DNA from: Pelagicoccus enzymogenes
GTDB taxonomy: Bacteria > Verrucomicrobiota > Verrucomicrobiia > Opitutales > Opitutaceae
Direction: 5' to 3'
DNA length: 64,000 bases
Assembly (NCBI RefSeq): GCF_014803405.1
Contig: NZ_JACYFG010000038.1
Coordinates: 62,001 to 126,000, forward strand
Both the position numbers and the translations under genes were made by a program. The notes below the pieces were generated by a model, which worked only from the letters and a program-made list of their open reading frames with translations, did no database searches and was not told where the DNA came from. Of this stretch, positions 56,381 to 63,863 are shown one piece after another (position 1 is the stretch's first letter; each line of letters starts with the position of its first letter).

Positions 56381-56644
56381 CTAGTGGCTACAGCGGTCTC
56401 CGGGACGAAAAACGAACGCTTCCGGATTGCCGTAGAACTTTCCCTTCATCCAAAGGTGCTGCACGATATCGTAAGCGTCGAGCCCATGTCCGGAACAGGT
56501 GTGGAAAGTGGCGTCTTCGCCAAACGCCTCCACAATCTCAGCCGACAGGCTTTCGTTCGTATACGTTTTCCCAGTACGGATCATCATCTCAAGTATCTCG
56601 TGGGCGTGAATATCCGGCTTTCTCAGGTCTGTGAATTTGCTCAT
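56381..56644 (-). CDS. YecH-like (DUF2492) metal-binding protein
   Basis: 87 residues. HAHEILEMMIRTGKTYTNESLSAEIVEAFGEDATFHTCSGHGLDAYDIVQHLWMKGKF...RCSH is the DUF2492/YecH family pattern, with conserved His/Cys residues likely to bind metal. It is the last gene of the nap operon on the minus strand. Members often sit near nitrate, nitrite or NO metabolism genes, but the function is unproven. Confidence 0.8.
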   Translation of the reverse strand: MSKFTDLRKPDIHAHEILEMMIRTGKTYTNESLSAEIVEAFGEDATFHTCSGHGLDAYDIVQHLWMKGKFYGNPEAFVFRPGDRCSH

Positions 56645-56674: not shown

Positions 56675-57001
56675 TTAGGAAAAATTTTGTTCGATACGCG
56701 TCATGCGAACCCCACCCTCGCGGACAATTAAAGTATCCCACCACTCCGCGCCTTGATATCCGTAACGGATCTGCAGCCCACGTGCTTGTCCGGAGCGGAG
56801 CAGGGACTTACCTTCCCGCAGCTCGACCGCTGTCGGGGCGACGTAGCCAGGCCCCTTTTTCGGGATCACTGCGAACACCTCCGCGCACTCCTGAAGGTCC
56901 AAAAAATATCTGTCTAGGGTTTCCTCGTCCAAGTCAGCTTGCTGCAGGTCTGGCAATTTAGGAGTTTCGTCTTCTGTATTCATTACGTCGTTACGTTCCA
57001 A
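56675..57001 (-). CDS. Nap-linked protein of unknown function
   Basis: 108 residues, or about 102 from the Met at 56983. Acidic start (TEDETPKLPDLQQADLDEETLDRYFLDLQECAEVF) and a compact C-terminal half (KGPGYVAPTAVELREGKSLLRSGQARGLQIRYGYQGAEWWDTLIV), with no Cys motif, signal peptide or TM. Not recognised. It lies 3 nt after the NapF-like gene and 30 nt before the YecH-like gene, so it belongs to the nap operon and may be an assembly or regulatory factor. Confidence 0.6.
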   Translation of the reverse strand: MERNDVMNTEDETPKLPDLQQADLDEETLDRYFLDLQECAEVFAVIPKKGPGYVAPTAVELREGKSLLRSGQARGLQIRYGYQGAEWWDTLIVREGGVRMTRIEQNFS

Positions 57002-57004
57002 TTT

Positions 57005-57331
57005 TCAATCAAGCAGGAGAATCGCATTCCGAGGAGCCGGACATAGATCGTGGCAAATGCCGCAGCCGGTGCAGGCATCCGCATCCACGCGCGGAATCCC
57101 CCGCTCCGTCACGATCGCCCCCTCTTCCGGACAACGTTCGGAGCAAACCGAGCAAAAGTTGTTTTGGTAAGCCAGACAGTAGCGCCCCTGAATCACGGCA
57201 GTCCGATACTTCGGCTCGGCGCTCGGGCGATCTCGGCCGCCCTCCGTCCGCTGCTCCGCATCCTCGCGAACGTGCTTGAGGAAGTTGCTGAAGAAGTCCC
57301 GGCGGGAAAACTGTCGCTTGCCGTCTGACAT
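57005..57331 (-). CDS. napF: NapF-like ferredoxin
   Basis: 108 residues. A Tat-like start (RQFSRRDFFSNFL) without a clear hydrophobic stretch, then FCSVCSERCPEEGAI and CTGCGICHDLCP, giving two [4Fe-4S]-type cysteine sets rather than the four of E. coli NapF. NapF proteins are cytoplasmic and thought to help mature NapA. It sits between napB and an unknown gene, with short gaps (14 nt and 3 nt), in the nap operon. The gene symbol rests on context; other short ferredoxin families are possible. Confidence 0.72.
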   Translation of the reverse strand: MSDGKRQFSRRDFFSNFLKHVREDAEQRTEGGRDRPSAEPKYRTAVIQGRYCLAYQNNFCSVCSERCPEEGAIVTERGIPRVDADACTGCGICHDLCPAPRNAILLLD

Positions 57332-57344
57332 AGGAAACCTGCAA

Positions 57345-58163
57345 CTACTCCGAAGCCTCCCCCTCGGACAAGCGCTCCCAAAACGGGAAGGGCGACTCTG
57401 AAAAATTCGTCTTATCGACCTCTAGGCCAGGCACATGGCACTGGTTGCAGCTTTGGCGCTCCGGATGGCTGGTGCGGATCGGACTGGTGCCCAACGGTCC
57501 ATGACAACTCATACAATTTTGCCGCATGTGCACATTGTGAGGAATGGTCGGCGGCGAATCCGGATACGCCTTCTTCCCTTGCAAGGCCTGATGGTAACCG
57601 CCGAATCGATTGCCCGTATGCAGGTCGAAGTCCGCAGTGTTCCATTGGCTACCCAAGCCCTTGGTGGATACATGGCATTGCGTGCAACTCGTATATTCAG
57701 GATGCGATATCGCCGGAGCTACCACGTCCCCAATTCGCAAGGCTTGACCATGGCACTGCAAACAGCTTTCGGCGGTGTGTTGGTCAATCGGATGCGGCAC
57801 GACAGGGGGAGCCCCATCGTAAGCCCGACGTCTCTCGCGGCGAAAACGCAGCTCCTCGACATCCGAAGTCACCATCGAATCAAAGGCATCGTTCGGAGCG
57901 AGATCGCTCAAGCGACTCTTCCAAGCCGCATTCGGACTGTAACCAGCCTTCCCGATTTCGGAATAGCTCGGAGCAGGGATCGCCGCCGAATGCGTATCCG
58001 TTTCTCCATGACTCTTTTCTGTCAATACAAGCTGGGCGCTCGATTCGCTCACCGTTTGGCGCAAGCCCATGAAGAAGCCGCTTACCGACACGGTGAACAC
58101 CGCGGCCACCAGCACGGTAGTCGCCGCCGTCGACTTGTTTCGTTTGGGGTTAGGGGCGTTCAT
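57345..58163 (-). CDS. napB: Four-haem NapB-type periplasmic cytochrome c
   Basis: 272 residues. An N-terminal membrane/signal segment (about 15-33), then YDGAPPVVPHPIDQHTAESCLQCHG and a SHP-x-x-T-S-CTQCHV tail, as in diheme NapB. The same pattern repeats: PPTIPHNVHMRQNCMSCHG and SHPERQSCNQCHVP. That makes four CxxCH haem sites with nearby His ligands and a clear internal duplication of the NapB unit; the family norm is two haems and about 150 residues. It delivers electrons to NapA, 3 nt upstream. The extra haems could extend the electron wire toward the quinol-oxidising module encoded divergently. Confidence 0.82.
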   Translation of the reverse strand: MNAPNPKRNKSTAATTVLVAAVFTVSVSGFFMGLRQTVSESSAQLVLTEKSHGETDTHSAAIPAPSYSEIGKAGYSPNAAWKSRLSDLAPNDAFDSMVTSDVEELRFRRERRRAYDGAPPVVPHPIDQHTAESCLQCHGQALRIGDVVAPAISHPEYTSCTQCHVSTKGLGSQWNTADFDLHTGNRFGGYHQALQGKKAYPDSPPTIPHNVHMRQNCMSCHGPLGTSPIRTSHPERQSCNQCHVPGLEVDKTNFSESPFPFWERLSEGEASE

Positions 58164-58166
58164 GGC

Positions 58167-60602
58167 TTAACGAATCGGGGAAGGGCTCCCAGCTCGAGAT
58201 CCTGCGGGACGTTTGTAGACCACCGCCGCGCACTTCTTGTAGTCGGGTTCTTTCGAGATAGGGTCGATGTCGCCGAGCGTGATCTCGTTGATGAGCAAGT
58301 TCTCGTCGAAGAAGGGAACGAAAACCGTTCCCTTCGGCGGGCGCCCGCGTCCATTAAGCCAGACCGGCAGCTCTATCTTGCCGCGACGCGTTTCAATCAC
58401 CGCCAAATCGCCATTGCCCAATCCCTGTGCTGCCGCGTCCTCGGGGTGCATTTCCACGTACGCGTGCGGCATGGCATTACGCAGCTGCGGTACGCGACGG
58501 GTCATGGTGCCAGAGTGCCAGTGCTCGAGCACGCGGCCGGTACAAAGCCAAAGCGGATACGCTTCGTCCGGCTCTTCCGTGGCCGGCTCGTAGGGACAAA
58601 ACCAAATGAGCGCCTTGTCGTCCTTGGTCACGGAATGGTAGAATTGCAGCTGCTTGCCCTTTTCCACGTAAGAGTCGCTGAACTCCATGAAGCGGAAGGG
58701 CGTTTCATGCCACTTGCCGTCCGCCTTCTTGACCACCGGCCAACGCAAGCCGCGAGCCTTCACGAGTTCGTCGTAGGGCGCTACGTCCTTGTGTTTCAAA
58801 TACGTCAGCTTGCGGTACTCCTCGAAGAGCTGCTTGTCGGCGTTGACCTCGTAATAGCGCTCCCATTCCCAAACAGGCACCTCCGCTCCGGACTCGTCCT
58901 GGATGCTAAAGATGAAATTGCCGTCCTTGTCCTTCATGCCGGGATGACCCATCTCGAAAAGCCGTCGCGCCACCGCGATCGTCATCCAACAATCGTCGCG
59001 GGCTTGGCCAGGAGGATTGACCATCTTGAACCACTGCTGGGTGCGTCGCTCGCTGTTTCCGTAAACCCCATTCTTCTCGACCCACATAGCCGCAGGCAAA
59101 ACGAGGTCCGCCAACTTGGTCGTAGCCGTCGGATAGACTTCCGAAACGATGAGGAACTTGTCCTTCAAGCCTGCCTTGTTCGTAAAGTGCTTCTTTAGGT
59201 GGGGCAAGGTATGTCCGGGATTCGTAACTTGTACCCAAACCGTGGATATGTCCCCGCCCTCTTCGGTCGGCGTGCAAAACTGCTCCCACATCTTCACCGT
59301 GTGGTAGCCGGGCTTGGGATTGATTCGCCCCGCTGGCATGTTCCAAACCTCCTCGCAGTCGCGGCGATGGCTTTCGTTGGCCACCACGCGACCGCCGGGC
59401 AGGGCGTGGGCCAGCGTGCCGACCTCGCGAGCCGTGCCACAAGCCGACGGTTGCCCAGTCAGGCTGGTCGGCGCGTCGCCAGGCTTGCCGAAATGTCCGC
59501 TCAGCAAATGAATGCCATGCAGCAAGCGGTTCATGTTCGTACCGCGGGTATGCTGGTTCACTCCCATGCACCAAAGGCTGGTGATGCGGATATCCTTGCG
59601 ACCGAAAAGCTCTCCGAGCAGCCGTATTTTATCTACGGGTACACCTGATAGCTGCGAAACGTACTCCGGGGTGTAAGGCTTCAAGAGCTCCGCATATTCC
59701 TCGAACGTGCTGGCTTGGCCAAAAAGCGACGCCTCCTCCGTATCCTTTCTGAAATTACAGAAACGCTCCACGAACTGCTTGTCGTAGGTTCCGTTTTCGA
59801 TGAGTAGATGGGCGATTCCGTTGGCGATCGCTAGGTCCGTCTGCGGTCGGAACTCCAGGTACTCGTCGCTGTATTCGCTCGTCCGCGTACGGCGCGTACC
59901 GATATCGATCAGCGTGACCTTTTCCCCCTTGGAGCGGCGGTCGATCACTCGCGAAAACAGCACCGGATGCATCTCCGCAGGATTGTTTCCCCACATGATC
60001 AGCACGTCGCACTCGTCGAGATCCGTGTAGCAGCCCGCAGGTTCGTCGACCCCGTGGGTGGACAAGTATCCCGTTACCGCCGACGCCATGCACAAGCGGG
60101 CGTTCGGGTCGATGTGGTTGTTGGACAGACCACCCTTGATAAACTTTTGGGCCGCGTATCCTTCGGGTATTGTCCATTGGCCGCTGCCGTAGATGGCGAA
60201 TTGCTCGGGCTTGTCGTAAATGCGCTTGGCAATCACGTCGATCGCCTCGTCCCAGGATATCGTCTCCAACTTTCCATTACGACGCAACTGCGGCTGGGTG
60301 AGCCGGTCCTTGCCATACAAAATGCCGCCAACATGGTAGCCCTTCACGCAAAGCAGGCCCTTGTTCACCTCGGCCAGCTGCTCGCCTTGGATAGCGACCA
60401 CCTTGTCGTCCTTCACGCCCACCCTTACATGGCAGCCCGTCCCGCAAAACCGGCAGGGTGCCTTGTCCCACTTCACCCCGTCCGCTCCTTGGGCAGCCTC
60501 CAGCTGCGTGTTTTCATACTTTCCGAAGGCACGTTGGTGAGCGGCGGCTACTGCCGCAGCCATAGCGGTTTGCTTCAAGAAGTGACGACGATCGATTGTC
60601 AT
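58167..60602 (-). CDS. napA: Periplasmic nitrate reductase, catalytic subunit NapA
   Basis: 811 residues, close to the family length. Tat signal (DRRHFLKQTAMAAAVAAAH), then the [4Fe-4S] motif CRFCGTGCHVRVGVKDDK...LLCVKG, a molybdopterin domain, and the Mo-ligand Cys in NARLCMASAVTGY. The middle IKDRG-free but conserved nitrate-reductase blocks (WGNNPAEMHPVLFSR, TRGTNMNRLLHGIHLLSGHFGKPGDAP) and the MGD-binding C-terminus (LWLCTGRVLEHWHSGTMTRR) are present. It reduces nitrate to nitrite in the periplasm. Preceded by napD, followed by the four-haem NapB. Confidence 0.97.
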   Translation of the reverse strand: MTIDRRHFLKQTAMAAAVAAAHQRAFGKYENTQLEAAQGADGVKWDKAPCRFCGTGCHVRVGVKDDKVVAIQGEQLAEVNKGLLCVKGYHVGGILYGKDRLTQPQLRRNGKLETISWDEAIDVIAKRIYDKPEQFAIYGSGQWTIPEGYAAQKFIKGGLSNNHIDPNARLCMASAVTGYLSTHGVDEPAGCYTDLDECDVLIMWGNNPAEMHPVLFSRVIDRRSKGEKVTLIDIGTRRTRTSEYSDEYLEFRPQTDLAIANGIAHLLIENGTYDKQFVERFCNFRKDTEEASLFGQASTFEEYAELLKPYTPEYVSQLSGVPVDKIRLLGELFGRKDIRITSLWCMGVNQHTRGTNMNRLLHGIHLLSGHFGKPGDAPTSLTGQPSACGTAREVGTLAHALPGGRVVANESHRRDCEEVWNMPAGRINPKPGYHTVKMWEQFCTPTEEGGDISTVWVQVTNPGHTLPHLKKHFTNKAGLKDKFLIVSEVYPTATTKLADLVLPAAMWVEKNGVYGNSERRTQQWFKMVNPPGQARDDCWMTIAVARRLFEMGHPGMKDKDGNFIFSIQDESGAEVPVWEWERYYEVNADKQLFEEYRKLTYLKHKDVAPYDELVKARGLRWPVVKKADGKWHETPFRFMEFSDSYVEKGKQLQFYHSVTKDDKALIWFCPYEPATEEPDEAYPLWLCTGRVLEHWHSGTMTRRVPQLRNAMPHAYVEMHPEDAAAQGLGNGDLAVIETRRGKIELPVWLNGRGRPPKGTVFVPFFDENLLINEITLGDIDPISKEPDYKKCAAVVYKRPAGSRAGSPSPIR

Positions 60603-60639
60603 GAGGGTACTTTTTTCGAGGGTTGGGGAAAATTGGGTT

Positions 60640-60903
60640 TCAGTCGGCGTCGGCGTCCGCGTCCGTCGCGCAGAAAACCACGTCGACGTTCGAGACGCCC
60701 GGCAGGGCTTCCAGCCAGCGATGCAATCCGCGTGCGTCCACGTCCTCGATCACGATCGGCAGGTAGTTTCCCTCCAGCGGCGCGGCCGAAATCGAGGGAT
60801 GCTCTAGAATTCTGGCATGCGCATGGGCCGACACCTCCGGTTCCTTCGAGAGGGTCACTATCAAACTCGTCAGGCGAGTGTTCCATGGGCGCTGCTTGCT
60901 CAT
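60640..60903 (-). CDS. napD: NapD-like chaperone for NapA
   Basis: 87 residues from the Met at 60903 (a longer frame from 60942 is possible). RLTSLIVTLSKEPEVSAHAHARILEHPSISAAPLEG...IVIEDVDARGLHRWLEALPGVSNVDVVF is the NapD ferredoxin-like fold: two beta-alpha-beta units, the second ending in a G-V-x-x-V-D-V strand. It binds the Tat signal of NapA and delays export until the cofactor is inserted. First gene of the minus-strand operon, 37 nt before napA. Confidence 0.85.
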   Translation of the reverse strand: MSKQRPWNTRLTSLIVTLSKEPEVSAHAHARILEHPSISAAPLEGNYLPIVIEDVDARGLHRWLEALPGVSNVDVVFCATDADADAD

Positions 60904-60947
60904 CTTGAAACACAACTTGAGGGCGCTTTTCGCTGAGTTCAATATTT

Positions 60948-60964
60948 AAATACCTTTTTATCTT
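60948..60964. promoter_or_regulatory. Shared motif in the nap divergent promoter region
   Basis: AAATACCTTTTTATCTT in the 96-bp gap between napD (minus) and the cytochrome gene (plus). The same 17-mer with one change (C at the ninth position) ends the window at 63984-64000, and both are preceded by TTTAAATA. A conserved regulatory site is the simplest explanation; the factor is unknown. Confidence 0.5.
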
Positions 60965-60999
60965 GAATATAAACACAAGGCTTTCCAATCTCGGCCAAG

Positions 61000-61668
61000 A
61001 TGAAACCCCGTCCCCTCCTGATTGCGGCAATACTCGGCTTCGCCGTCGTGCTCTGCCTGGCGTCCTGGTGGATCTACCAGAGATCCTTCGCCTCCTTCGA
61101 GGAAGCCGTCAGTCACCGCCAGGTCCAGATCGCGCTCGACACCGGCGAGGCCCATCCGGTCACCATCCAAGGCGCCCCCACGACCCCGACCGTGCTCGCC
61201 GATCTCTCCCAGAGCGGACGCGCCCCCACCGAAGTCGCCTGCACCACCTGCCACAGCACCCGCACGCCCCAACTCGCCCAGCGCGATTCCGTCCAGCTCG
61301 ACGAATTTCACCAAGGCTTGCAGAAGCAGCACGGCACGCTCTCCTGCCTCAGCTGCCACAACGCCGACAACTACGACACCCTGCGCCTCGCCGACGGAAC
61401 CCCCGTTGCCTTCGAAAATACCATGCAGCTCTGCGCCCAATGCCACGGACCTCAGTTCCGCGACTACACCAACGGTTCCCATGGCGGCATGAACGGCTAC
61501 TGGGACCTCAAGCGCGGCCCTCGCACCCGCAACGCCTGCAACGTCTGCCACGATCCCCACTCCCCCGCCTACCCGCAGCTCATCCCTGTCTTCCCGCCCA
61601 AAGACGTGCAGTTGCGCAAACAAAAGTACGGCGACTCCTACCCGGACCCCGACCAACACGCCCATTAA
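61000..61668 (+). CDS. Membrane-anchored tetrahaem cytochrome c
   Basis: 222 residues. N-terminal TM (about 5-24) with a short cytoplasmic tail, then four CxxCH sites (VACTTCHS, LSCLSCHN, LCAQCHG, ACNVCHD) in a mostly helical periplasmic part with conserved His. It is not NapC/NirT (no matching spacing or quinol-site signature). With the FeS and NrfD proteins downstream it forms a three-gene quinol-oxidising module like those of Nrf and Act/Alternative complex III types, which probably passes electrons to NapB. Divergent from napD across a short promoter region. Confidence 0.82.
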   Translation: MKPRPLLIAAILGFAVVLCLASWWIYQRSFASFEEAVSHRQVQIALDTGEAHPVTIQGAPTTPTVLADLSQSGRAPTEVACTTCHSTRTPQLAQRDSVQLDEFHQGLQKQHGTLSCLSCHNADNYDTLRLADGTPVAFENTMQLCAQCHGPQFRDYTNGSHGGMNGYWDLKRGPRTRNACNVCHDPHSPAYPQLIPVFPPKDVQLRKQKYGDSYPDPDQHAH

Positions 61669-61678
61669 CCGATCCGCC

Positions 61679-62599
61679 ATGACAGACGTGAAAAAGACTT
61701 CCGGCATCAGCCGCCGCACCGCCGTCAAAGGCATCGGCGCCACCCTTGGGGCCGCCGCCTTCGCCAAGGCTATCGCCCCGCTCACCAGCTGGGCCGCCAA
61801 CCAATCCATCGACGAGTTCCTGCAAAAGCACTACCAAGAGCTCACTCCCGCACAGATGCAGAAGGTCCTCAAGCGGCTGGAGGAGGACACCAAAAAAGAC
61901 TACGGAGCCGAGGTCACCATCACCGACCCCAAGCCTCAGCCGGGCGTCAAGTTCGGCTACGCCCTCAACCTCTCCATTTGCGTGGGCTGCCGCAAGTGCG
62001 CCCAAGCCTGCCACGTCGAAAACAACCATGACCGCAAGTCCGGCAATTCCTACATTCGGGTGCTGGAAATGAAGAAAGGCTCCCTCGACATCGAGCACGG
62101 CAAGGTCGACTACAAAGGCCCCGTCCCCAAGTCCGACTCCTTCTACATGCCGGTCCAGTGCCAGCAGTGCGACAACCCGCCTTGCGTAGACGTCTGCCCC
62201 GTCGAGGCCACCTGGAAGGAAAAGGACGGCATCGTCGCCGTAGACTACAACTGGTGCATCGGCTGCCGCTACTGCGAAGCCGCCTGCCCCTACCACGCCC
62301 GCCGCTTCAACTGGACCAAGCCAGAAATCCCCCAGGAAGAAATCACTCCCGTGCAAGGCTACCTCTCGAACCGAGTCCGTCCGCAAGGCGTCATGGAGAA
62401 ATGTACCTTCTGCATGCACAAGACCCGCAACGGGGAGCTCCCCGCCTGCCTTCAAGCCTGCCCCACCGGCGCCCGCGTCTTCGGCAACCTGCTCGACCCC
62501 GAGTCCGAGATCCGCTGGGTCCTGGAAAACAAGCGCGTCTTCGTGCTCAAGGAAGAGCTCGGCACCAAACCCAGCTTCTACTACTTCTTCGATGAATAA
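61679..62599 (+). CDS. Exported four-cluster [4Fe-4S] protein (NrfC/DmsB-like)
   Basis: 306 residues. A Tat signal (SRRTAVKGIGATLGAAAFA) puts it in the periplasm, unlike most NrfC. Four Cys sets follow: CVGCRKCAQACH, CQQCDNPPCVDVCP, CIGCRYCEAACPY and CTFCMHKTRNGELPACLQACP. It should relay electrons between the NrfD-type membrane protein, whose gene it overlaps by 8 nt, and the tetrahaem cytochrome encoded 10 nt upstream. Confidence 0.9.
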   Translation: MTDVKKTSGISRRTAVKGIGATLGAAAFAKAIAPLTSWAANQSIDEFLQKHYQELTPAQMQKVLKRLEEDTKKDYGAEVTITDPKPQPGVKFGYALNLSICVGCRKCAQACHVENNHDRKSGNSYIRVLEMKKGSLDIEHGKVDYKGPVPKSDSFYMPVQCQQCDNPPCVDVCPVEATWKEKDGIVAVDYNWCIGCRYCEAACPYHARRFNWTKPEIPQEEITPVQGYLSNRVRPQGVMEKCTFCMHKTRNGELPACLQACPTGARVFGNLLDPESEIRWVLENKRVFVLKEELGTKPSFYYFFDE

Positions 62600-63863
62600 G
62601 CCCGCCGCCACTCTTCCCCCACCCCACCTCAGCCATCTGAACAGCTACCCGCGCTTCATCTGGCGCATGATGGTTCTGGCCACCGAGGGCAATTGGCTTT
62701 TCTACGCCTGGATGATCGGTCTCTCCGCCGTCGCCCTCGTCGGGCTCAACGCCTGGGCCATCCAAGTCACCAACGGCATGGGCGTCACCAACATGTCCGA
62801 CCACGTCTCCTGGGGGCTCTACATCGCCAACTTCACCTTCATGGTCGGCCTCGCCGCGGGCGGGGTCATGATGGTCATCCCCGCCTATCTTTACCACGAC
62901 GACGACATGCACGACGTCGTCATCATCGGCGAGCTGCTCGCCATCGCCGCCATCGTCATGTGCATCGGCTTCGTGGTGGTCGACCTCGGCCGCCCTGACC
63001 GCGTCTGGCACATGCTGCCGGGCATCGGAAAATTCCACTTCCCCGTCTCCATGCTCACCTGGGACGTCATCGTGCTCAACGGCTACCTGCTCATCAACCT
63101 GCACATCTGCGGCTACTTGCTCTACCAACGCTACCGCGGCCGCCGTCCCAACCCCAAAATCTACGTGCCCGTGGTCTTCCTCTCCATCGGCTGGGCCATC
63201 TCCATCCACACCGTTACCGCCTTCCTCTACCAAGGCCTCGGCGGGCGCCCCTTCTGGAACACCGCCCTGCTCGCCCCACGCTTCCTCACCTCTGCCTTCG
63301 TCTCCGGCCCCGCCTTCATCATCCTCGCCCTCGAAGCCATCCGCTACCTCAGCAGCTACAAGGTAGGCGACGGGGCCATCCGCATCCTCGTAAACATCAT
63401 GCGGGTGACCATCCTCATAAACCTGCTGATGCTGGCCTCCGAGGTGTTCACCGAATTCTACACCGGCGGCTCCCACACCGCCGCCGCCCGCTACCTCTAT
63501 TTCGGCCTGCACGGCTTCGACGCACTCGTGCCCTGGATCTGGAGCTCCATCGTGCTCACCCTCCTCGCCGCCCTCCTGCTGCTCTGCCCCAAGGTCCACA
63601 AACACCCCGTCATGCTGGTCACCGCCTGCTGCTTCGCCTTCGCCGGCATCTGGATCGAAAAAGGCATGGGCCTCATCATTCCCGGCTTCATTCCCTCCAC
63701 CCTGCACGAAATCGTGGAGTACACGCCCAACGGTATCGAGTGGCGCATCTCCGCCGGCATCTGGGCCGCCGGACTGATGATCTACACCCTCGCCATCCGC
63801 GTGGCCATGCCGATCTTCTCTGGGGAAGTCTCCCTCAAGAAAGACATCGAGGACCACGCGTGA
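62592..63863 (+). CDS. NrfD-type membrane quinol oxidoreductase subunit
   Basis: 423 residues with about ten hydrophobic helices: FIWRMMVLATEGNWLFYAWMIGLSAVA, VSWGLYIANFTFMVGLAAGGVMMVI, GELLAIAAIVMCIGFVVVDLGRPDRVWH and IEKGMGLIIPGFIPSTLHEIVEYTP among them. The W-G-L-Y-I-A-x-F-T and D-L-G-R-P-D-R motifs are typical of the NrfD/PsrC family, which oxidises (mena)quinol in the inner membrane and can move protons. Starts inside the FeS gene, so the two are translationally coupled. No other electron acceptor than NapA is encoded in view. Confidence 0.92.
   Translation: MNKPAATLPPPHLSHLNSYPRFIWRMMVLATEGNWLFYAWMIGLSAVALVGLNAWAIQVTNGMGVTNMSDHVSWGLYIANFTFMVGLAAGGVMMVIPAYLYHDDDMHDVVIIGELLAIAAIVMCIGFVVVDLGRPDRVWHMLPGIGKFHFPVSMLTWDVIVLNGYLLINLHICGYLLYQRYRGRRPNPKIYVPVVFLSIGWAISIHTVTAFLYQGLGGRPFWNTALLAPRFLTSAFVSGPAFIILALEAIRYLSSYKVGDGAIRILVNIMRVTILINLLMLASEVFTEFYTGGSHTAAARYLYFGLHGFDALVPWIWSSIVLTLLAALLLLCPKVHKHPVMLVTACCFAFAGIWIEKGMGLIIPGFIPSTLHEIVEYTPNGIEWRISAGIWAAGLMIYTLAIRVAMPIFSGEVSLKKDIEDHA

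Follow-up and report, generated by a model that had tools for sequence, protein, structure and literature searches.

A DsrOP-type module as a candidate quinol dehydrogenase for periplasmic nitrate reduction

Two divergent operons at the end of the window

The window, the whole stretch of DNA analysed here, comprises 64,000 nucleotides of Pelagicoccus enzymogenes (contig NZ_JACYFG010000038.1, positions 62,001 to 126,000). According to its open reading frames (ORFs) and profile searches, two divergent operons fill its final 7.5 kb. The minus-strand operon encodes a periplasmic nitrate reductase (Nap) system; the plus-strand operon, the subject of this study, is a three-gene module for a tetrahaem cytochrome c (cyt4), a DsrO-like iron-sulfur (FeS) protein and a DsrP-like membrane protein. 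Their shared divergent promoter contains a putative operator (60939..60966): an imperfect inverted repeat, TCAAGA-N16-TCTTGA in type, that is conserved in the window and four relatives.

The nap operon begins with a NapD-like chaperone (60640..60903), which matches a NapD alignment in profile-profile comparison with 98% probability and has no match in Pfam; its ORF is open to 60942, and by homology it probably starts at the ATG at 60903. The NapA-type molybdoenzyme that follows (58167..60602) has a twin-arginine leader (18 bits in the Pfam TAT model, below the cut-off of 22.7), an N-terminal 4Fe-4S motif and the NARxCMASA Cys motif, as seen in an alignment that includes Flammeovirga NapA. Both motifs line up with NapA of E. 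coli, Cupriavidus and Paracoccus at about 46% identity; the best models for the protein are the NCBIfam NapA models, and its best PDB matches are NapA. Beyond napB lie genes for a NapF-like ferredoxin-type protein with eight Cys (57005..57331; Fer4 families above cut-off, the napF model below it at 27.6 bits), a conserved Nap-linked protein of unassigned function (56675..57001; the start may be 56983; no match in Pfam or NCBIfam) and, last, a YecH-like protein (DUF2492; 56381..56644; PF10678 87.3 bits and TIGR03853 94.5 bits, both above cut-off). The original prediction, made from the sequence of the window, had listed these six genes in this order, and they lie where it placed them; its gene content holds, while the range it gave ends just to the right of the YecH-like gene.

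The NapB-like protein (57345..58163) carries four CxxCH motifs, at 134, 160, 217 and 239, in two tandem NapB units that follow an N-terminal hydrophobic segment (PF03892, 42.1 bits, above cut-off). Each of the four canonical NapB proteins checked has two CxxCH, and the protein of the window departs from this two-haem form. Among the uncut NapB-like frames of related loci, 82 of 84 have four CxxCH and two (L114, L116) have six. Hidden Markov models (HMMs) built from the two halves cross-match in all 77 proteins tested, each finding the opposite half, and both match the dihaem NapB of E. coli, Cupriavidus and Paracoccus in a small target set. These cross-matches identify the NapB of the window as a tandem tetrahaem protein, which is new in this analysis. 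A candidate anchor motif is present in only 22 of the 84 frames and was dropped as evidence. The two six-haem frames (L114:2681-3586 and L116:3196-3963) encode a hexahaem NapB of apparently three NapB units.

On the plus strand, cyt4 (61000..61668; 222 aa) has an N-terminal hydrophobic segment and CxxCH motifs at 81, 116, 145 and 180; four CxxCH recur in 95 of 97 uncut frames. Four further His are invariant in a 43-row alignment and would fit bis-His haems. The protein scores 15.8 bits with the NapC/NirT family PF03264, below the cut-off of 24.1, and its predicted model (43 rows, picked by length from a larger set; pLDDT 79, pTM 0.57) has no PDB match with E < 0.001. The DsrO-like protein (61679..62599; 306 aa) begins with a twin-arginine leader, has 16 Cys arranged in four groups, and scores 188 bits with the NCBIfam DsrO model NF045797, below its cut-off of 200. 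The DsrP-like protein (62592..63863; 423 aa), a putative membrane quinol-site subunit, exceeds the cut-offs for the NrfD/PsrC family (PF03916, 128 bits) and its DsrP branch (NF045798, 424 bits against 350). This agrees with the earlier description of the trio as a tetrahaem cytochrome, a Tat-exported FeS protein and NrfD.

Proteins of the NrfD family have a periplasm-side quinone site; the quinone has been linked to an acidic or His residue in helix 2 and to a Ser close to the pocket, and proton gating to a mid-membrane Arg, replaced by Lys in DsrP1 (PMC8076601). In the DsrP-like protein, Asp131, Ser153 and Lys357 are invariant in all 87 sequences aligned, and they align with Asp109, Ser129 and Arg329 of HybB; these equivalences come from consistent alignment (all three residues for HybB, Lys357 only for NrfD) rather than from strong statistics. 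Six DsrP-like proteins (L071-L076) have an extra mid-protein stretch of about 150 residues.

Linkage to napA, phylogeny and the shared promoter

The module accompanies napA well beyond this genome. Of 286 class genomes sampled, 9 encode NapA and 29 the DsrP-like protein; each of the nine NapA genomes has the module no more than 2.5 kb from napA (hypergeometric 3e-10 for the overlap, kinship among genomes ignored). A sample of 387 genomes of the phylum gave 11 matching genomes, made up of four already known, three whose NapA types are new (50-52% identity) and four weak matches (36-39%) that were not counted as NapA and of whose neighbourhoods one was inspected. In all three new genomes, napA, tetrahaem napB, tetrahaem cyt4, dsrO and dsrP stand in the same order and orientation, which brings the linkage to 12 of 12 NapA genomes.

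One genome from each of 84,980 species was scanned with a pattern; this found 273 relatives of the NapA, and the best 80 were kept. All three module genes are present in 64 of the best 80 and at least one in 71. In the seven loci with a partial module the contig breaks off on the module's side no more than 2.2 kb from napA, and seven of the nine loci without module genes have a contig end within 0.8 kb upstream of napA; where at least 5 kb is available on both sides, the module is complete in 39 of 41 loci, which according to their sequence records come from Verrucomicrobiota, Planctomycetota, Myxococcota, Acidobacteriota and Sumerlaeota. Its position and orientation relative to nap vary (73 loci), so the adjacency survives rearrangement. 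In plasmids, 209 records contain NapA (E up to 1e-100) and one contains a DsrP-like gene (E up to 1e-20); that record has both. The Bacteroidota plasmid p1 of Flammeovirga kamogawensis carries napD-napA-cytochrome-cytochrome-FeS-NrfD in one row, each cytochrome with four CxxCH. Three other plasmid nap loci were inspected: in two, napB is followed by a NapC/NirT-family gene, and the third has a protein annotated as cytochrome c3.

A phylogeny of the NrfD protein, which the original prediction had suggested as a check, was run as a tree of DsrO and DsrP together. It covers 87 loci (22 of 109 were left out because genes were missing, cut or short) and was built by a quick method with one distant outgroup. 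The 64 modules linked to nap alone form one clade with an SH-aLRT value of 100; five further modules, linked to an octahaem gene as well as to nap, interleave with those linked to the octahaem gene only. In the NapA tree, which has few outgroups and places Flammeovirga on a long branch, the whole group stands apart from the four canonical NapA proteins used as outgroup.

The palindrome in the divergent promoter has an almost invariant core in the window and four relatives. Scanning 89 loci (1.47 Mb) gave 13 sites that match at 11 or 12 of the 12 arm bases, ten of them within 900 bp upstream of napA, in stretches that total 77 kb and make up 5% of the sequence; in these stretches spacing 16 gives the 10 matches, and 17 other spacings together give 7. 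Of the ten matching loci, four (the window, L100, L101 and L103) had supplied the pattern, and six lie outside its source (L104, L108, L112, L171, L174 and L175); L102, with 10 of 12 arm bases, falls below the threshold. A shuffle test, whose pattern included the window's own site, says only that the site is not repeated by chance.

To the right of the module, beyond dsrP, lies an Rrf2 regulator gene (Pfam). A close homologue (E < 1e-29) is found in 13 loci, in 12 of them directly downstream of dsrP by coordinates, and eight of the ten operator loci are among those with the homologue. Of the remaining two, L112 has a weak homologue at that place and L104 is cut off before it. An Rrf2-type regulator acting at one operator probably switches both operons together. 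Three Cys of the protein (95, 102 and 108) presumably resemble those of the cluster-binding IscR/NsrR type. Between dsrP and the Rrf2 gene, from 63975 to just beyond the window's end (L003:8975-9002), the operator recurs in part, with one arm and the core, perhaps for autoregulation.

Electron donors to NapA

The original prediction had named a napC or napGH elsewhere in the genome, or another reductase adjoining the module, as grounds against it; neither was found. In the assembly of the window (60 contigs, 95.9% complete), PF03264 gives two matches, an NrfH directly before NrfA and an ImcH-like protein, and the best NapH score is 18.5 bits against a cut-off of 213. No multihaem or molybdoenzyme reductase was seen in about 10 kb to the right of the module, where the ORFs were read by eye. 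The ImcH-like protein is encoded with a seven-haem cytochrome, a 692-aa protein resembling an outer-membrane barrel and a monohaem cytochrome (L056:4191-9082, G000:C35), a cluster perhaps for extracellular electron transfer.

The nine NapA genomes of the class give a similar result, with NapH above cut-off in none. Their 14 PF03264 matches comprise five short proteins, each adjoining an NrfA match, six ImcH-like proteins (the one above and five others) and three long frames; G241, G125 and G210 have no match at all. Short PF03264 proteins adjoin an NrfA match in all nine cases examined (G000, G056, G101, G234, G248, G370, G414, Adhaeretor and Archangium). For Adhaeretor mobilis (chromosome) and Archangium lansinium (contig) it is the only PF03264 match, and neither sequence has a NapH match. 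Within the 80 related loci, an E. coli NapH query finds nothing, an E. coli NapC query has three matches, all of them at loci that also have an NrfA match, and NapG-like matches with E < 1e-20 occur in 11. The same NapH query does match a NapH-like gene in L196, where a second, distant molybdoenzyme (26% identity to E. coli NapA) adjoins NapG-like and NapH-like genes (L196:13886-18171, G414).

We consider it very probable that the module is a dedicated quinol dehydrogenase that takes the place of NapC or NapGH in Nap-type nitrate respiration. This supports the original prediction, which had proposed a different membrane electron donor, and the linkage to napA across phyla, the Nap-only clade and the common palindrome make the case much stronger than it could be from one genome. 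The DsrP-like protein would oxidise menaquinol at its periplasm-side site and hand the electrons to the FeS clusters of the DsrO-like protein, from which they would travel via cyt4 and then tetrahaem NapB to the FeS cluster and the Mo centre of NapA for the reduction of nitrate to nitrite; the NrfHA encoded in the Pelagicoccus enzymogenes genome could carry nitrite onward to ammonium. Oxidation of quinol into the FeS chain would be the natural direction with nitrate as acceptor. Reverse flow, in which nitrite oxidation reduces menaquinone, is rejected on energetics only, given potentials of +420 mV for nitrate and -75 mV for menaquinol (PMC6195509).

Several observations weigh against a donor dedicated to nitrate reduction. 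NapA scores below both NCBIfam NapA cut-offs (881.9 bits against 904 and 854.4 against 930.55) and is therefore termed NapA-type, although it is nearest to NapA among all models and PDB chains; nitrate is the presumed substrate of these enzymes. The 80 loci were selected by similarity to the NapA of the window, and two of them (L162, L179) have NapA and tetrahaem NapB and no module within their flanks. In G125 (L051), napB was not found and the cyt4 and dsrP frames are broken, either by decay or by assembly error. Three long frames match PF03264 in addition to the NrfH and ImcH-like proteins (L087 and L089 in G101; L088 in G234, below cut-off). Comparison of the DsrP family with single HybB and NrfD sequences in hhalign gives probabilities of 18% and 15%. 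The operator enrichment is partly circular, as the pattern was derived from five of these loci, arms and spacing were fixed after the first scan and most of the loci outside the pattern source had already been seen by then. Finally, 20 class genomes have the module and no NapA; seven of these modules adjoin an HAO-type octahaem gene, and eight of the genomes have a nearby gene with six or more CxxCH, so this type of module is not specific to Nap.

This last point bears on the idea of a general quinol:cytochrome hub, similar to CymA, that serves Nap and other periplasmic reductases. Module relatives do lie beside octahaem or near multihaem genes, and in five loci Nap and HAO-type genes surround a single module. 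We nevertheless regard a hub as unlikely, as the Nap-only modules form a separate clade, their promoter palindrome is common with napD, and the NrfA of Pelagicoccus enzymogenes has its own NrfH. A quite different route would run through an alternative complex III (ACIII) or a bc1-type complex that feeds Nap via soluble cytochromes and leaves the module with another role. The only other NrfD-family match in the genome lies in an apparent ACIII, judged by gene make-up (G000:C5), which counts against a dedicated module, and QcrABC feeds Nap in Campylobacter jejuni (PMC6195509). Such a feed would leave the 12 of 12 linkage, the common palindrome and the Nap-only clade unexplained, and we hold it to be very unlikely.

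The NrfH and the ImcH-like protein, both encoded in the genome, are highly improbable donors: three of the nine NapA genomes have no PF03264 match, and a 2025 review terms the substitution of NrfH for NapC unlikely (PMC12285233). The trio might also be part of a DsrMKJOP sulfur complex, as the NCBI label of the Flammeovirga copy has it, with DsrP above its cut-off and DsrO near to it. We find this scarcely credible: the cytochrome is tetrahaem and not trihaem, nap genes lie alongside, and dsrA exceeds its cut-off in none of the 12 genomes. DsrMK partners were not recognised by eye in the ORF lists, and no DsrM or DsrK model was run. A nap-linked copy at L183:8950-10167 is publicly labelled 'DsrMKJOP subunit DsrP', and the window copy also exceeds the cut-off of that model.

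Energy conservation and relation to known systems

Periplasmic nitrate reduction is usually considered to waste the last energy step. If the DsrP-like protein pumps protons, as has been proposed for other members of the NrfD family, it would build proton-motive force directly in Planctomycetota, Verrucomicrobiota, Myxococcota and others. The drop from -75 to +420 mV leaves room for pumping. QrcABCD is electrogenic when it reduces menaquinone and takes its protons from the cytoplasm (PMC6303296). A cytoplasm-side proton path of the QrcD type, run toward quinol oxidation, would release protons inside and dissipate proton-motive force. As such a path costs energy in reverse, net conservation needs real pumping; otherwise the step is electroneutral. 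An energy-conserving quinol:nitrate oxidoreductase, in which the DsrP-like protein pumps protons during menaquinol oxidation and may form a supercomplex with anchored cyt4, anchored tetrahaem NapB and NapA, is a tentative and rather doubtful possibility.

The module resembles E. coli NrfBCD in its architecture of multihaem cytochrome, FeS protein and NrfD and in the presumed electron path. NrfBCD differs in that it feeds the nitrite reductase NrfA, with five haems in NrfB and eight predicted helices in NrfD (PMC12285233, PMC8076601). An assignment of the trio as NrfBCD was rejected: the NrfC equivalog model gives the DsrO-like protein 128.8 bits against a cut-off of 377.6, and four haems stand against the pentahaem NrfB. 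The DsrJOP half of DsrMKJOP is close in its DsrP and DsrO, and the Lys of the module stands at the mid-membrane position of Lys329 in DsrP1 (PMC8076601); it differs in the three haems of DsrJ against four in cyt4, and the module has nap genes alongside and no dsrA above cut-off in its genomes. NapC and Wolinella NapGH have the same role, from menaquinol to periplasmic nitrate reductase, and belong to different protein families. The Nap of Campylobacter jejuni is likewise free of NapC and has a possibly energy-conserving donor (PMC6195509); that donor is a Qcr (bc1-type) complex, and here it would be an NrfD-type module.

In an open-access library we found one forerunner, and no paper found there describes the broad linkage, the absence of NapC/NapGH, NapB as a tandem protein or the operator. 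NrfD-containing clusters adjoin nap in two metagenome-assembled genomes of Planctomycetota, OFTM8 and OFTM33, where they were grouped with ACIII-like clusters and proposed for respiratory electron transfer (PMC10732223). OFTM33 is locus L119 of our set, so the arrangement noticed there is probably the same one. The section of that paper on the two genomes contains no NapC survey and no analysis of NapB or an operator. How NapC is replaced in nitrate respirers that contain NrfH is poorly understood, according to a 2025 review (PMC12285233), and the module lineage offers a concrete answer for several phyla, open to genetic testing in named strains with the arrangement (Pelagicoccus mobilis, Adhaeretor mobilis, Archangium and Flammeovirga kamogawensis). 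In several understudied bacterial groups the wiring of nitrate respiration, and perhaps its energetics, may thus depart from the textbook scheme, and metagenome surveys that search for napC or napGH, or that trust the DsrP label, can misread nitrate respiration.

Among the other genes of the operon, the Nap-linked protein has a homologue in 58 of the 80 related loci and the YecH-like protein in four, all close relatives. The predicted model of the former (21 rows, picked by length from a larger set) is confident, with an alpha+beta fold and pLDDT 88; Foldseek gave no match with E < 0.001, the best VIA match has Z 6.5, and no fold match is convincing.

In 12 loci, cyt4, DsrO and DsrP adjoin an octahaem protein, seven without nap (L064-L070) and five with it (L053, L054, L141, L156 and L169). 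The 12 octahaem proteins are all homologues; compared with that of L054, the 11 others have 65-83% identity. Two were run against Pfam, and both match Multi-haem_cyto (PF13447), which we take to be the HAO-type family. These modules are candidates for a quinol-fed octahaem nitrite reductase, with a nitrate reductase alongside in the five loci.

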